Shown here: positions 34,374 to 58,961 of the stretch, piece after piece
Layout: each line of letters opens with the position of its first letter
Position numbering within the stretch: position 1 is the first letter of the stretch
Assembly (NCBI GenBank): GCA_003278705.1
Contig: QCDR01000005.1
Coordinates: forward strand, 18,794 to 82,793
Length of the DNA: 64,000 nucleotides
Direction of reading: 5' to 3'
Source of the DNA: Prochlorococcus sp. AG-355-J23
GTDB lineage: Bacteria > Cyanobacteriota > Cyanobacteriia > PCC-6307 > Cyanobiaceae
The notes under the pieces: model-generated
Told to the model about the DNA's origin: nothing
Databases searched by the model: none
What the model saw: the letters and a program-made list of their open reading frames with translations, nothing else
Position numbers and translations under genes: made by a program

Positions 34374-35960
34374 ATGAGTCAAATAATTTTAAAAAAAGAA
34401 AGAGATCCTTCAATATTAATTTTGGATTTCGGTTCTCAATATTCTGAATTGATTGCTAGAAGAATTAGAGAAACTAATGTTTTTTCTCTTGTAGTAAGTA
34501 ATTGCATTTCAATTGAGGAAATTAAAAATATTAATCCTAAAGGGATTATTTTGAGCGGAGGCCCAAATTCTGTATATGAAAAAAATGCGCCTAAATGTGA
34601 TGAAAAAATTTTTAATTTAGGAATTCCTATTCTTGGCATTTGCTATGGAATGCAATTAATGGTCAAAGAACTTGGAGGATCTGTTATTTCAGCAACCAAA
34701 AGAGCTGAATATGGTAGAGCACCAATAAAAATAGATCAAGAATCTGACCTTCTTTCTGATGTGGAAGATAAATCAATTATGTGGATGAGTCATGGCGATT
34801 CTATTAATTGTATGCCTGATGGATTTAATAAGATTGCTCATACGGAGAACACACTCCATGCAGCAATTTCAAATGATTTAAAGAAATTATTTGGCGTACA
34901 ATTTCATCCTGAAGTTATTCATTCAGAGTTTGGGATGACAGTAATTAAAAATTTTGTTTATAAAATTTCTAGTTGTGCAGCTGATTGGACAACCGAAACC
35001 TATATAGAGGAAACTATTCCAAGGATAAGAGAGCAAGTTGGTAATAAAAAAGTTTTGCTTGCCTTATCTGGAGGAGTTGATTCTTCAACTCTTGCTTTTC
35101 TTCTCAATAAAGCTATAGGAAATCAGCTTACATGCATGTTTATAGACCAAGGTTTCATGAGAAAAGGTGAACCAGAATTTTTAATGAATTTTTTTGATAA
35201 GAAATTTCATATAAAAGTTGAATACATTAATGCAAGAGAAAGGTTTATTACCAAATTAAAAGGTATTACTGATCCAGAACAAAAAAGAAAAATTATAGGT
35301 GAAGAATTTATTAGAGTATTTGAGGAAGAAAGCAATAGATTGGGACCTTTTCAGTATTTAGCCCAAGGTACTCTTTATCCTGATGTTATTGAAAGTGCTG
35401 GGACTAATATTGATCCTAAAACAGGAGAAAGAATAGCTGTAAAAATAAAGAGTCATCATAATGTGGGTGGATTGCCAAAAGATTTACAATTTAAATTAGT
35501 TGAGCCATTAAGAAAACTTTTTAAGGATGAAGTCCGAAAAGTGGGAGCTGCTTTAGGTTTGCCGGATGAAATTATAAAAAGGCATCCATTCCCAGGACCA
35601 GGATTAGCTATAAGAATTTTGGGAGAGGTGAATAATGAAAAACTTGATTGTTTAAGAGATGCAGACTGGATAGTAAGAGACGAAATTAAAAAAGCAGGAC
35701 TTTACAATGATATTTGGCAAGCTTTTGCAGTATTGCTACCTGTAAAAACAGTAGGAGTTATGGGTGATAAGAGGACTTATGCATGGCCAATAGTTTTACG
35801 TTGTGTATCTAGTGAAGATGGTATGACAGCCGATTGGTCAAAAATTCCTTTTCAGATTTTGGAAAGGATTGCAAATAGAATCGTAAACGAAGTAAGTTCA
35901 GTTAATAGAGTTGTTTATGATATTACAAGTAAACCTCCAGGAACTATTGAATGGGAGTGA
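34374..35960 (+). CDS. guaA: GMP synthase (glutamine-hydrolysing)
   Basis: [41 protein letters not shown]-terminus [10 protein letters not shown]. Confidence 0.98.
35940..35960 (+). repeat. att-like core, proximal copy (guaA 3' end)
   Basis: GGA ACT ATT GAA TGG GAG TGA; matches 37474..37494 at 18/21 positions, all differences synonymous or stop-to-stop. Confidence 0.85.
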
Positions 35961-35998
35961 AGAATAGGTTATAAACCCAGTTATAGACTCAAAAAGTT

Positions 35999-36020
35999 GG
36001 TTTCCCTTAGGTTTCCCTCA
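35999..36020 (+). repeat. Tandem 11-bp repeat pair (site A)
   Basis: ggtttccctta|ggtttccctca. Confidence 0.9.
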
Positions 36021-36059
36021 GAATTTCTGTATCCTATTTGCAATGGATCTTAACAGCGT

Positions 36060-36081
36060 GGTTTCCCTCAGGTTTCCCGTG
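36060..36081 (+). repeat. Tandem 11-bp repeat pair (site B)
   Basis: ggtttccctca|ggtttcccgtg. Confidence 0.85.
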
Positions 36082-36166
36082 GAGTGAAAATCCTGTCTCT
36101 ATAGAGAAATCGTAGAGTTTTAAATTTCTCTACACTTTGTATTCAAAATTCAATTTTTTTATGCTC

Positions 36167-36295
36167 TTAATAATGAGGTGGTTCTGATTCTTCTGGAGGG
36201 AAATAGGTATCCTCATCATTACTTTTTCTCTTCTTTTTAAAATACTCTTCGGATGGATCTAATCCATCATTATCATAATTGCGTTCTTGTTCCAT
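36167..36295 (-). CDS. Small acidic/charged hypothetical protein (42 aa), not in ORF track
   Basis: MEQERNYDNDGLDPSEEYFKKKRKSNDEDTYFPPEESEPPHY*; ATG overlaps the stop of the upstream 36295..36768 ORF by one base (TAATG). Confidence 0.5.
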   Translation of the reverse strand: MEQERNYDNDGLDPSEEYFKKKRKSNDEDTYFPPEESEPPHY

Positions 36296-36768
36296 TAAAA
36301 ATAATCCCTATATGGTGCTCCATCTTTGTTGTATCTAATTCTATATCTACCTCCTCTTTCTCCATAAAAAACTTCTTCTTTTTGACTTCCTACTAAACCT
36401 CCGCCAATTTTTTTTACCTCTCCCGCAATTCTCCCTTCATTAACTGCTTCATTATATTTTCTTGCTCTTTCCTCGCAAAATTTTTGATATTTTTCACTTT
36501 TATAGTAATCATCAGGTAAAGTTTTTTTCTCTAATTTTGCTTGAGTTGTTTGCTCTAAATTAGATTCTCTTGCTTCCTTCCACCTTTTATATGCTTTATC
36601 GTTTTCTTCTGCTTGTTTTTTATCAAATTTATGTTTTTTAAAAGTAACTGATCTATTTTCTCTCTCACCAAACTTTTTACCCTTTCTGACGGTCATATCA
36701 TATTCATTTTGATACCAAGCGATTAACAAAATTAATAAAGGGATCCCTAAAAGAATTACTATTTCCAT
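36295..36768 (-). CDS. Hypothetical protein, N-terminal TM segment, charged body, C-terminal GGRYRIRYNKDGAPYRDYF
   Basis: 157-aa ORF inside the putative guaA element. Confidence 0.65.
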   Translation of the reverse strand: MEIVILLGIPLLILLIAWYQNEYDMTVRKGKKFGERENRSVTFKKHKFDKKQAEENDKAYKRWKEARESNLEQTTQAKLEKKTLPDDYYKSEKYQKFCEERARKYNEAVNEGRIAGEVKKIGGGLVGSQKEEVFYGERGGRYRIRYNKDGAPYRDYF

Positions 36769-36941
36769 AAATTTATTTTTCTAAATGTGATTTGAATAAT
36801 GCTGCTGAAACTAAATCAATAATTCTTATCGCCTTAAAAAGTGAATAAATTCCATACACATAACGTACTAATATCATAAAATTTTGAACTTATTACAAAC
36901 AATCTTAAATTAAAAATTGAGATCTACAAAGTTAAATAAAC

Positions 36942-37088
36942 ATAAAATAAGAGGGCATTTGTTTGCCCTCTTCGAGTCTTATGCACCTCGCTGTCCACAA
37001 AGTCGATGAAGTGCTTTTGACTCCTGAATTATTTCTACTCCTACTGAATAGAAAAAGATAGTCGTACAAACCACAAAGCACTTCTACT
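36942..37088 (-). ncRNA. Predicted structured small RNA (minus strand)
   Basis: Minus-strand TATTAT at 37095-37100 as -10; closing stem GAAGTGCTTT (37008-37017) / AAAGCACTTC (37075-37084); 3' hairpin AAGAGGGCA-loop-TGCCCTCTT (36949-36972) followed by ATTTTATG on the minus strand. Confidence 0.45.
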
Positions 37089-37156
37089 CGGGTAATAATA
37101 CTCTATGAATTTCAAGTTAATAGGAGGACAATATAGATATAGATCTAGGAGGTCTT

Positions 37157-37339
37157 ATGAAACTATTCAATCAATTCAATGTCCTTCCAAGATACCTAAC
37201 TGCATTTAATTATGCAGGGTTAAACTTGAATGAAACCCCTCAAGAACTTGAAAAATGTACTCCTGAGTTTCAAAATTTTTGGGAGAAAGAATGTAGAGAA
37301 CATCCAACAAATCAAAATTGTTTAATTTACTGTGACTGA
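37157..37339 (+). CDS. Small Cys-containing hypothetical protein (60 aa)
   Basis: Strong Shine-Dalgarno aggaggtctt-ATG; MKLFNQFNVLPRYLTAFNYAGLNLNETPQELEKCTPEFQNFWEKECREHPTNQNCLIYCD. Confidence 0.5.
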   Translation: MKLFNQFNVLPRYLTAFNYAGLNLNETPQELEKCTPEFQNFWEKECREHPTNQNCLIYCD

Positions 37340-37384
37340 GTAATTAATTTTGAGTTTTTGTTTAATAAAACCTGCCTAAAAAGA

Positions 37385-37406
37385 GGTTTCCCTCAGGTTT
37401 CCCTCA
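37385..37406 (+). repeat. Tandem 11-bp repeat pair (site C)
   Basis: ggtttccctca|ggtttccctca (perfect). Confidence 0.92.
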
Positions 37407-37473
37407 GGAAAATGTATGTTATCATGGGTTCAAACATGTTGGTATCACTACGTTTATGACTGCCTTATTTCTC

Positions 37474-37494
37474 GGTACTATTGAGTGGGAGTAA
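37474..37494 (+). repeat. att-like core, distal displaced copy of guaA 3' end
   Basis: GGT ACT ATT GAG TGG GAG TAA encodes GTIEWE* like the guaA terminus. Confidence 0.85.
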
Positions 37495-53839: not shown

Positions 53840-55078
53840 TTGAGCCAGTTAGATTCCAATTGGTCGTTTGTTGATGACAGTAAGGTAACACCCAAGGGGT
53901 TTCTTTTTGCTGGGATATCTGCTGGTTTAAAAGCTTCTAATAAAAAAGATTTAGCACTAATACTCGCTCCAGAAGGAAGTATTTTTAGTGGAATGTTTAC
54001 CCAGTCAATTGTTCGAGCTTCTTGTGTGGATATTTGTGAGGAAAGGATTAAAACAACTTCAGGTTTTGTAAGAGCAATATTAATTAATTCTGGTCAAGCA
54101 AATGCATGTACAGGCAATCTTGGCATTCAACATTTTCAAATTGCTACAGGAAAGATTGCGGAACTTTTAGGAATAAAAGAAGAAGAAGTTTTAATGTGCT
54201 CAACTGGTGTAATTGGTGTCCCAATACAAATAAATGATTTAGTAAAAAATTTACCGAATTTAGTTAGTGATTTAAAGGGTAATAATTTTGCAAATGCAGC
54301 AGAAGCAATTTTAACTACTGATTTGACTTTGAAAAAAGTGTCAATAGAGACGATTATTCAAGGTAGAAAAATAAAAATAGCAGGATTTGCAAAAGGTTCA
54401 GGAATGATTTACCCCAACATGGCTACAATGCTTGCTTTTCTAACCTGTGATGTGGGTATTCAAAAAGAAGAATGGGACAACATGATTGCTATTGCGGTTC
54501 AAAAATCTTTTAATGCAATATCAGTTGATGGAGAGACAAGCACAAATGATTCTTTTGTTGGAATAAATGCAGGAGAGAAAATTGAAAAAAGGTTTTTTCC
54601 AATTATCCAACAAGGGATTGATATTGTATGTCAGAACTTGGCAAAAAATATTGCAAGGGATGGAGAGGGAGCAAATTGTTTATTAGAAGTTTTGGTTCAA
54701 GGAGCAAAAAATACAGATGATGCAATTATGATCGCGAAATCTATTTGTAATTCTGCTTTGGTAAAAACTGCGATACATGGTTGTGATCCAAATTGGGGAC
54801 GAATCATTTCTGCTGCAGGTAATTCTGGAGTTAAATTTAATTTAAATGACGTTGACTTGTATATAGGAAACGCCCACATTTTGGAAAAAGGCAAGTTAAA
54901 TAAATATGATCCACAAAAAGTCACAGACTATATTAAGTCCAGAATGAAAGGTAGATATTTGGTAGATGATATTGTAAAAATTATGATTAATCTAAATTCA
55001 GGCGAATCGAAAGGCACAGCTTGGGGGTGCGATCTTTCTAAAAAATATGTTGAAATAAATAGCGAATATACTACATAA
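53840..55078 (+). CDS. argJ: Bifunctional ornithine acetyltransferase/N-acetylglutamate synthase
   Basis: INSGQANACTG, GSGMIYPNMATMLAFLTCD, CDPNWGRIISAAGNSG; C-terminus YVEINSEYTT. Confidence 0.96.
   Translation: MSQLDSNWSFVDDSKVTPKGFLFAGISAGLKASNKKDLALILAPEGSIFSGMFTQSIVRASCVDICEERIKTTSGFVRAILINSGQANACTGNLGIQHFQIATGKIAELLGIKEEEVLMCSTGVIGVPIQINDLVKNLPNLVSDLKGNNFANAAEAILTTDLTLKKVSIETIIQGRKIKIAGFAKGSGMIYPNMATMLAFLTCDVGIQKEEWDNMIAIAVQKSFNAISVDGETSTNDSFVGINAGEKIEKRFFPIIQQGIDIVCQNLAKNIARDGEGANCLLEVLVQGAKNTDDAIMIAKSICNSALVKTAIHGCDPNWGRIISAAGNSGVKFNLNDVDLYIGNAHILEKGKLNKYDPQKVTDYIKSRMKGRYLVDDIVKIMINLNSGESKGTAWGCDLSKKYVEINSEYTT
55046..55078 (+). repeat. att-like core, proximal copy (argJ 3' end)
   Basis: TAT GTT GAA ATA AAT AGC GAA TAT ACT ACA TAA; last 21 bp match 56361..56381 at 20/21. 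Confidence 0.9.
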
Positions 55079-55123
55079 TTGCAAATCCATTGCAGGGCAA
55101 CAGAAGTCAGGAACTATTAAAAA

Positions 55124-55145
55124 AATATGACACTAATATGACACT
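55124..55145 (+). repeat. Tandem 11-bp repeat pair (site A')
   Basis: aatatgacact|aatatgacact (perfect). Confidence 0.92.
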
Positions 55146-55199
55146 AAATTCTAATCTTATTGGTTGAAATTTCTTACACAGAAACTTATAGAAAATTTT

Positions 55200-56111
55200 T
55201 TAAAAAAAAGAAGTTTGGATTCCACTTTTTTCTTTTAATTCCTTAAGACTATTTATTTTTAATTTTGAAGTTTCCCAGTTTTCATGTGTGCCTGATACTA
55301 ATCCAATATTATCTCTCAACCACTTTTTCATTTCTTTTTCAAGTTTTAATATCTCTTTACCCCAATGAGGTCCACTCTTATCGATTTCAATCCAACCTAA
55401 AGATCTATGTGCTCTCAACCTTTGTGTGAAATTATTTGTTATGCCAATTTGTTGTTCTCCTTTTCTTTCTAGTAAGTAAAACCAAGATTGTTTCCCTGGA
55501 TTAAAACCATACTCTGCACAAACTGGACAACCTGTCTTATCTCTACCAGTTCTTTCATAAGGAGTTGTTTGCCAAGTATGACCTTTATTACATTTCCATT
55601 TTTTAACTTTATTACTTCCTGAGGTTACAGTTTTTGGATCCCAACCATCTGCCTCTGCAGCAATATTTGGAAACAGAGTTTCTAAATCATTAAATCCCAA
55701 ACTAACTTTTTGGTTACTGCAAAATGGACAATTACTTTTGCTCTCTGTTCTATGTTTAATCATAGTTTGCCAAGTATGACCTTTATTACATTTCCAGGGC
55801 ATTTTTGTATGACTTCCTGCACCGATCTGTTTAGGATCCCAACCATCTGCCTCTGCAGCAATATTTGGAAACAGAGTTTCTAAATCATTAAACCCAGTCC
55901 ATATTTTTCTATTTGCACAATATGGGCACCATGTATTGTAAGAAATCCGATCATTTATTTTTACTTTCCAACTATGACCTTTTTTGCACTTCCAGGTCAT
56001 TTTTTTATTACTTCCTGAGGTTACAGTTTGAGGATCCCAACCATCTGCCTCTGCAGCAACTTTTGGATGCAAAGTTGCTAAGTCATTGAGGCCAGGAATC
56101 AGTTTTCGCAT
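55200..56111 (-). CDS. Triplicated zinc-ribbon (treble-clef-like) protein with GIY-YIG-like C-terminal region
   Basis: Three ~66-aa units GFNDLETLFPNIAAEADGWDPK...WKCNKGHTWQ...CPxC; C-terminal FYLLERKGEQQIGITNNFTQRLRAHR. Confidence 0.75.
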   Translation of the reverse strand: MRKLIPGLNDLATLHPKVAAEADGWDPQTVTSGSNKKMTWKCKKGHSWKVKINDRISYNTWCPYCANRKIWTGFNDLETLFPNIAAEADGWDPKQIGAGSHTKMPWKCNKGHTWQTMIKHRTESKSNCPFCSNQKVSLGFNDLETLFPNIAAEADGWDPKTVTSGSNKVKKWKCNKGHTWQTTPYERTGRDKTGCPVCAEYGFNPGKQSWFYLLERKGEQQIGITNNFTQRLRAHRSLGWIEIDKSGPHWGKEILKLEKEMKKWLRDNIGLVSGTHENWETSKLKINSLKELKEKSGIQTSFF

Positions 56112-56220
56112 AAAACTAATTTACTGCAATTAAGTAAATTAGAAATCTAAAAGTTTTCAATAAAAAAAGATGTTATCCATGCTTAATTTCGTTCGCAGAA
56201 AACTATTCATAATCCTTATG

Positions 56221-56242
56221 AATATGACACTAATATGACACC
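56221..56242 (+). repeat. Tandem 11-bp repeat pair (site B')
   Basis: aatatgacact|aatatgacacc. Confidence 0.92.
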
Positions 56243-56282
56243 TCTTCAGTTGTATCAGGAGGTTTGATTAGGTTGCGTAAAC

Positions 56283-56304
56283 GATATGACACCAATATGA
56301 CACT
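56283..56304 (+). repeat. Tandem 11-bp repeat pair (site C')
   Basis: gatatgacacc|aatatgacact; a further half-site gatatgact lies at 56327-56335. Confidence 0.9.
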
Positions 56305-56348
56305 AATTTAATCCTTGAAATCAACTGATATGACTGACTTTTACTCTG

Positions 56349-56381
56349 TATGTTTTTATCAATAGCGAATATACTACTTAA
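56349..56381 (+). repeat. att-like core, distal displaced copy of argJ 3' end
   Basis: TAT GTT TTT ATC AAT AGC GAA TAT ACT ACT TAA; last eight codons (INSEYTT*) differ only at third positions. Confidence 0.9.
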
Positions 56382-56616
56382 GTTTTAGTAAATCTAATGG
56401 TAGATATTCATTTATATATAGAAACAGTATTGTTAAAGTTCCAATTACAGAGCCTATAAAACCTCCAAAAAAATTAACTAATAATCCAGATTGTCTAATT
56501 ATTGCTTCTTCTTTTTTTTCTTCTTCAAAATTAGGAGAATCAACTACTTTTAAGCGCTTATTGGTTGTTGGTTGTTTAAGTTGTTGGTGTCGGATGAGGG
56601 CTTCGAAATCAGGCAT
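56374..56616 (-). CDS. Small membrane protein downstream of ParA
   Basis: MPDFEALIRHQQLKQ...LLVNFFGGFIGSVIGTLTILFLYINEYLP; ATG at 56616 preferred; stop lies inside the distal argJ-end copy. Confidence 0.6.
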   Translation of the reverse strand: MPDFEALIRHQQLKQPTTNKRLKVVDSPNFEEEKKEEAIIRQSGLLVNFFGGFIGSVIGTLTILFLYINEYLPLDLLKLK

Positions 56617-57221
56617 GGAATTTGTGAGGCAATTGAACAATAAGCAGACCAGCCCGTCATTCGACGAGGATCTGATCTGCCTAAATCGTCTACAGCTTCA
56701 AATACAGCATTGCCGGAGGCTTCTGCTTTATCAAATGCTGAGAGTAAGGGTATAAATGTATCAAAAACATATAAACCAAAATTTTCTAGAGCTGCTTTGG
56801 CTTGTTGCGCTGCTTTTTGCTGTCTAAAATCAACTTTTACTATTGCTACAGCATGGTTAACTTTTAAGTTGCTTAATAAATTAGCTAGTTCAACAGTTAA
56901 TTCTACTGATCTTGCTTTTGCAGTTGTAGGTAAGATAACTAAATCTGAACCATACGCTAAGTGTTTAAGTTCTTCTTGATCACTGCTAGCTTGGCCATCA
57001 GTTATTACAATTTCTGATGATCTTGATGCTTTAGCAGCTGAATTGACGGGGAAAACTGGAAATGGAAGGTTGCCTCTTGATGCGTATGCTAAAGCAGATC
57101 TATTCTTGTCGGCATCGACTATGCAAACTTTTTTACCTTCAGAATGCCAAACACTTGCAAGGTGAATACTTGTACAGGTCTTGGCCACCCCCCCTTTTTG
57201 TCCGCAAACGGTAATGAACAA
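56550..57221 (-). CDS. ParA-family ATPase (orphan)
   Basis: Deviant Walker A GQKGGVAKTCTSIHLA, CIVDADKNRSALAYA. Confidence 0.9.
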   Translation of the reverse strand: MFITVCGQKGGVAKTCTSIHLASVWHSEGKKVCIVDADKNRSALAYASRGNLPFPVFPVNSAAKASRSSEIVITDGQASSDQEELKHLAYGSDLVILPTTAKARSVELTVELANLLSNLKVNHAVAIVKVDFRQQKAAQQAKAALENFGLYVFDTFIPLLSAFDKAEASGNAVFEAVDDLGRSDPRRMTGWSAYCSIASQIPCLISKPSSDTNNLNNQQPISA

Positions 57222-58480: not shown

Positions 58481-58634
58481 TTTGCAAGATTGGATTTCTT
58501 AATAAGATAAATTAATTTAAAACTTATCTTCTCAGTATTTATACTTATAAAATTAAAAAAATTCTTTTTAATACAATTAATTGCAGCAATATTTACACTC
58601 TCATAAATTATCCACTACAACTTCTTAGTTATTT

Positions 58635-58660
58635 AAAAAAGTGGAGTCCTTCCAGACTCC
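58635..58660 (-). terminator. Rho-independent terminator of ssrA
   Basis: Minus strand GGAGTC-TGGAAG-GACTCC stem-loop followed by ACTTTTTT. Confidence 0.8.
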
Positions 58661-58664
58661 TCGT

Positions 58665-58925
58665 ATCATTTGGTTGATAAGGCTGATATAACCCCATCTC
58701 CTTTAGGATCAAGCAGCAACTGGTGCTGTTTGACGGGAGAAACTAACGATTTTGTTAGCATTTGTGTTTTTGCTCTAACCGAGCCGGCTTCAGTCACCTT
58801 CCTTATGCCCCGTCGAAACCATTACAACCCCAAATAGTGGAGTTGAGCGGAATCGAACCGCTGTCCGAAACATCGGTTGAGATCACCTAGTCCAATTGGA
58901 CATTTATATTCTGACAGGCAAAATG
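58665..58925 (-). ncRNA. ssrA: Circularly permuted two-piece tmRNA (approximate ends)
   Basis: Minus strand: TPsiC arm GGTTCGATTCC and CAACTCCA precede the 5' half GGGGTTGTAATGGTTTCGACGGGG; tag ORF 58709-58759 encodes ANKIVSFSRQTAPVAA*. Confidence 0.93.
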
Positions 58926-58961
58926 GTTATTGAATAGTTTTTTTACTAAGTTTTATCGTAT

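Follow-up and report, generated by a model that had tools for sequence, protein, structure and literature searches.

The window, that is, the whole 64,000-nucleotide stretch of Prochlorococcus DNA that was analysed, carries argJ followed by a short insert, a conserved host gene convergent with argJ (orf88) and a gene for a ParA-like ATPase. The 3' end of argJ recurs at the far end of the insert, and pairs of a short motif lie inside both of its ends. ARAGORN returned a single match in the window, a tmRNA at 58618-58927. The features of the locus are as follows.

53840-55078, forward strand: argJ, the target gene (PF01960, E = 1.5e-128).
Within 53840-55078, forward strand: last argJ codon and stop (ACA TAA), supplied by the insert (36 of 37 empty sites end ACT TAA).
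55058-55078, forward strand: proximal att copy (attL-like), AATAGCGAATATACTACATAA, defined by the repeat and by comparison with other genomes.
55064-55071, forward strand: inferred crossover, inside GAATATAC.
55126-55144, forward strand: left arm-type pair ATGACAC-N4-ATGACAC, 11-bp period.
55200-56111, reverse strand: cargo gene, 303 aa, with three DUF4379 treble-clef zinc fingers and a predicted C-terminal GIY-YIG-like nuclease domain.
56223-56241, forward strand: outer right arm-type pair of ATGACAC, 11-bp period.
56285-56303, forward strand: inner right arm-type pair of ATGACAC, 11-bp period, 62 bp from the outer pair.
56361-56381, forward strand: distal att copy (attR-like), AATAGCGAATATACTACTTAA, which runs on into empty-site sequence.
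56374-56640, reverse strand: orf88, conserved gene of the host, convergent with argJ and with its stop codon inside the distal att copy.
56550-57221, reverse strand: ParA-like ATPase gene (PF01656, E = 2e-12), host flank, directly downstream at empty sites.

The argJ 3' end at 55046-55078 is repeated directly at 56349-56381, with 28 of 33 nucleotides identical (85%) and an offset of 1,303 bp, the distal copy lying downstream. No further part of argJ is repeated downstream, and this 33-nt end is the sole repeated argJ sequence. Allowing up to 3 mismatches, AATAGCGAATATACTACWTAA occurs at two places in the 64 kb, both of them argJ-end copies, against a chance expectation of 0.01. The original prediction, that the argJ 3' end is duplicated 1.3 kb downstream and that the terminal eight codons differ at two third positions only, held on both counts. 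It had also counted the preceding YV codons as shared; that match is real, but the upstream TATGTT lies outside the core. We place the core common to both copies at approximately AATAGCGAATATAC(T)AC and exclude TATGTT because the distal copies of other genomes diverge to the left of the core.

We compared argJ loci in GTDB species genomes, taking 80 in order of their similarity to the window argJ; the sample is biased toward argJ genes close to that of the window, and many of the genomes are draft single-cell assemblies. Thirty-seven loci were empty, 37 were filled and 6 were undetermined at contig ends. At empty sites argJ and orf88 meet end to end, orf88 ending at or overlapping the argJ stop, and parA lies about 175 bp further. 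The filled loci, one of them in the named strain MIT 9314 (L018), hold inserts of 0.2-9 kb (median 1.8 kb, below 2 kb in 20 of 37) with unrelated cargo. The ArgJ C-terminus INSEYTT followed by stop (in fuller form KYVEINSEYTT) is retained in all 37 filled loci, where the last codon is ACT in 17, ACC in 9, ACG in 7 and ACA in 4, and the stop is TAA in 13, TAG in 13 and TGA in 11. At empty loci the last codon is always ACT (37/37), and the stop is TAA in 36/37. The right half of the distal copy is empty-site sequence (exactly TACTTAA) in 30 of the 37 filled loci; distal copies match the empty site on the right of the core and diverge on its left, and proximal copies show the opposite. Our inference, from sequence alone, is that the last bases of the empty site double as the overlapping end of orf88, a constraint from which insertion frees the proximal copy. 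GAATATAC is the most constant stretch, and the crossover is placed there by inference. Inserts of differing kinds sit at the same base positions, and the empty sites are precise.

Empty and filled sites, the duplicated core and the kept ArgJ end are thus shown at the sequence level. The 37 genomes in which argJ stands directly before the sequence found downstream of 56381 support the reading of the argJ end as an attachment site, and many different cargos were found in the argJ-parA interval. That the argJ end serves as an attachment site is strongly supported, with excision and transfer remaining inferences. In the pairs compared, cassettes were no more similar to each other than were their argJ and parA flanks; recent transfer is therefore undemonstrated and the age of the movements undetermined.

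The sequence TATGACACYAATATGACAC, absent from the original prediction, occurs three times in the window insert (55126, 56223 and 56285; expected 0.00). It was found in 8 of 200 genus genomes. The window and the genomes with flanks fetched were confirmed to carry it at argJ; for one matching contig (G059:C227) only the first 2.25 kb were examined, and it was not placed. We then searched 59 elements longer than 300 bp for exact 7-mer pairs at spacings of 8 to 15. Pairs at spacing 11 were present in 30/59 left ends and 32/59 right ends, other spacings giving 0-1, and internal control DNA yielded exact 7-mer pairs in 3 of 255 cases. The heptamers fall into the classes ATGACAC, ATAACAC, AAAACAC, ATAAACC, ATACCAC, TGCTTAC, TGTTCAC and TGTGATT. 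Most classes place the left pair at about +47 and the right pairs at about -71 and -132 (about 5 bp more when measured from the core). The exception is the TGTGATT class, at about +69 and -89. Within an element the left arm resembles the right: the mean match was 14.7/18 against 12.8 (sd 0.18) under permutation, a value reached by 0 of 20,000 permutations, without correction for elements related by descent. Where both ends could be classed, left and right classes agree in 29 elements and differ in 3. Some ends have no recognisable arm pairs, possibly through decay. This arm anatomy is shown; that a tyrosine recombinase uses the 11-bp pairs as arm-type sites is an inference from where they lie and how they are spaced.

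The window insert contains one cargo gene of note between its att copies, and no integration or transfer genes. The 303-aa product matches PF14311 (DUF4379, E = 4.8e-36) and the PHROG endonuclease family phrog_681 (E = 1.3e-29). Although its match to PF01541 (GIY-YIG, E = 0.0029) is below the cut-off, the key residues (Y, G-I, R, H, E and N, invariant in 5 relatives) and the predicted C-terminal topology (beta-beta-alpha-beta-alpha in an AF2 model, pLDDT 89) fit; the GIY-YIG-like assignment is a prediction, and nuclease activity is inferred. A fold search with the protein returned mitoribosomal proteins only, presumably matched through the zinc fingers, and no GIY-YIG structure. PADLOC assigned the gene to no clear defence system. 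Relatives of the DUF4379 gene lie in the argJ inserts of four other genomes. Relatives were also observed outside argJ, at L136 (near tRNA-Thr), L135 and L138; the DUF4379 cargo family is therefore common to several genome positions.

Other argJ inserts carry SRA-HNH, Z1 helicase-like, PEBP-like (PF01161) and YadA-anchor proteins, among others. Integrase-less inserts are the commonest form, with the same end anatomy and unrelated cargo. Internal core (att) copies divide many inserts into units, that is, tandem cassettes. In about 100 genomes sampled across genera of the family, 15 genomes from 12 further genera (counted from the match list) had the argJ tail repeated on one strand within 20 kb, and BLAST located argJ beside the copies in 11 of the 12 regions fetched. 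Copies in these genera occur in rows, as in G250, which has five within 3.9 kb. Tandem copies and use of the site across genera are shown, and in Prochlorococcus and its relatives the argJ end is very probably a shared landing site for small, mostly integrase-less cassettes, single or in rows.

Some argJ inserts do encode an integrase. A tyrosine recombinase lies inside the inserts of L060 and L075 (PF00589, one below the cut-off; phrog_1), and the insert of L114 encodes a tyrosine integrase with 57% identity to that of L075. In other genera, integrases were found in the argJ inserts of L202 (two), L203, L205 and L207. The argJ-insert integrases form two clades with full support, and arm geometry differs by clade. 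Clade I has its left pair near +70 and its right pair near -84 to -95; the exceptions are L075, whose pairs lie further out (left near +91), and L114, for which a left pair was not found. Clade II, the L060 type, has its left pair near +47 and its right pairs near -77 and -138, those of L060 itself lying about 10 bp further out. The window insert has clade-II arm anatomy, yet lacks an integrase. PDB profile matches of clade II fell on ubiquitin chains at the variable N-terminus and were judged an artefact. As separate observations, L202:1123-18674 holds two tandem argJ elements with one clade-I integrase each, the second being 11.5 kb long with large unidentified genes of 518, 439 and 1041 aa, and argJ at L114:10465-11704 reads as two overlapping ORFs, where an assembly error is possible.

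Strong matches to the argJ integrases were obtained in 3 of 267 genus genomes, the weaker ones including guaA- and trmD-linked relatives. Filled sites, by comparison, make up half of the argJ sites scored, so cassettes far outnumber integrase carriers. No argJ-type integrase was found in the window's own genome, which is 85% complete, so a helper could sit in the missing part. No integrase with ATGACAC arms was found, and no helper was identified for the window's arm class. The elements of L075 and L114 combine the tyrosine integrase with a small serine recombinase. The relatives that carry an integrase, part of whose genes are unidentified, showed no recognisable conjugation genes. IMG/VR contained neither the argJ att nor either integrase clade, and INPHARED contained no L060 integrase. 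Arm-motif matches on three IMG/VR contigs were set aside; the nearby ORFs look like those of unrelated phages.

The window contains a further element at the end of guaA (35934-37494), in which the guaA tail recurs near 37465 and GGTTTCCC pairs with an 11-bp period lie at 35999, at 36060 (61 bp apart) and at about 37385. Its arm layout is the mirror image of the argJ layout, and it has two small genes in common with argJ inserts, one of 60 aa (97% identical) and another (90%). The mirrored arms and the shared genes indicate that the two systems are of related kinds and that cargo passes between them. The claim of a second, independent element needs qualifying on this point. In other Prochlorococcus genomes, tyrosine integrases of two distinct clades occupy the guaA-PBP2 interval or lie directly after guaA (L116-L119, L163). 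At L115:8568-13650 a 505-aa integrase directly follows trmD, and FRIGNGYD, encoded at the trmD end, recurs about 4 kb on, where ispF begins; this may point to a third protein-gene integration site, at trmD/ispF, an inference resting on the repeat.

We consider it likely that the 1.3-kb segment is an integrase-less, CIME-like, non-autonomous cassette at an argJ site, probably moved in trans. The attachment site would be the last argJ codons, overlapping the end of convergent orf88. A clade-II (type L060) tyrosine recombinase encoded outside the cassette would bind the ATGACAC pairs, one on the left and two on the right about 62 bp apart, and recombine the att of the cassette with AATAGCGAATATACTAC on the chromosome. 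As the same final codons are also present in the cassette, the protein end of argJ would be kept at the proximal copy and that of orf88 at the distal copy. Repeated insertion at either copy would produce tandem arrays. The cargo would be free to vary. The predicted circle junction of the window element is TTTTTATCAATAGCGAATATACTACATAATTGC. Trans action on integrase-less cassettes, the exact crossover, excision and cell-to-cell transfer are all inferred from sequence alone, with no read-level evidence of excision, circles or transfer.

The best surviving alternative is a decayed remnant, in which a larger argJ-integrating element lost its integrase and is now immobile. This remains possible: the cassette has no integrase, no argJ-type integrase is present in the 85% complete genome, and some inserts lack arms on one side. 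Against it, the core and three arm pairs are intact in the window, and the commonest inserts are integrase-less with the same ends and unrelated cargo, which is hard to obtain by independent decay. Small cassettes with intact ends thus seem to speak against plain ICE/IME decay, without excluding decay. A free-standing homing endonuclease, whose GIY-YIG-like gene would cut argJ and insert itself with a replacement tail, is very unlikely. The nuclease-like cargo has zinc fingers of DNA-binding type, and homing genes may carry a recoded tail. However, nuclease-dependent insertion, by which such a gene would be recognised, is not met, the same site and ends bracketing unrelated cargos; the DUF4379 family also occurs near tRNA-Thr and elsewhere, and the arms match those of integrase-carrying elements. 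Tandem duplication, or homologous recombination copying the argJ end alone, would explain a direct repeat of argJ coding sequence but is all but excluded, because the repeat is confined to the core and argJ has left no other remnant, the empty sites are precise, and diverse inserts sit at the same base positions.

The trans-mobilised cassette, our preferred reading, can be extended to a bolder one: a family-wide, non-integron cassette system whose arrays stand at argJ and also, with the arms mirrored, at guaA, served in trans by rare clade-I and clade-II integrases. Here each cassette would bring a full arm set and a spare argJ tail, and the arm classes would mark distinct helper specificities; we see as much reason to doubt this extension as to accept it. 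With the argJ site, an attachment site in a protein gene joins the sources of genome plasticity in an abundant marine phototroph, and much of the exchange there may involve tiny integrase-less cassettes, not large islands. The fixed arm anatomy would allow cassettes to be found by sequence and integrase-cassette matches to be predicted, and trans-mobilisation is therefore directly testable. As several cargos are nuclease-like or defence-like, the site may be a route for anti-phage genes. No joint description of argJ, integration site and integrase was found in the open-access literature searched, which did not cover Hackl et al. 2023. The original suggestion that the attachment site may be new holds provisionally, and argJ is likely a new target.

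Among the features of a tyrosine-recombinase element, a duplicated core with clean empty sites is present, as are arm-type repeats at both ends, whose function is inferred; an integrase at the same site is met by relatives (L060, L075, L114, L202, L203, L205, L207) but not by the window element. The 11-bp arm pairs and the argJ core are unlike integron attC. Tycheposons (Hackl et al. 2023, as described in PMC10872708 and PMC10187409) are Prochlorococcus tyrosine-recombinase islands with site-specific integration and modular cargo. The DUF4379 family near tRNA-Thr recalls them; however, argJ is a protein gene and the tRNA criterion is not met, the window element lacks a recombinase, and the argJ integrases, compared by BLAST at 1e-3, matched none of the sampled tRNA-Thr/Tyr-linked integrases, which served as proxies for tycheposon integrases. 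Flamholz et al. (PMC10187409) described a family of divergent tyrosine integrases from Prochlorococcus and Synechococcus, often accompanied by a small serine recombinase and reported upstream of tRNA-Phe or tRNA-Cys; L075 and L114 share the serine recombinase pairing but use argJ instead of these tRNA genes. IMEs such as Gisul2, which integrate at the guaA 3' end (PMC5704250), likewise have their tyrosine recombinase site where a protein gene ends, whereas here the target is argJ, and most cassettes lack an integrase and many stand in arrays. The closest likeness is to the cis-mobilizable element (CIME), defined together with tandem accretion in PMC5704250: the window element keeps attL and attR without integrase or transfer genes, meeting that definition, and argJ cassettes stand in tandem with other elements at a gene 3' end. 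They differ in that argJ is not among the sites in the passages of PMC5704250 consulted, and in that argJ units are mostly small and single-cargo, have conserved arm pairs of several classes, and far outnumber integrase carriers.
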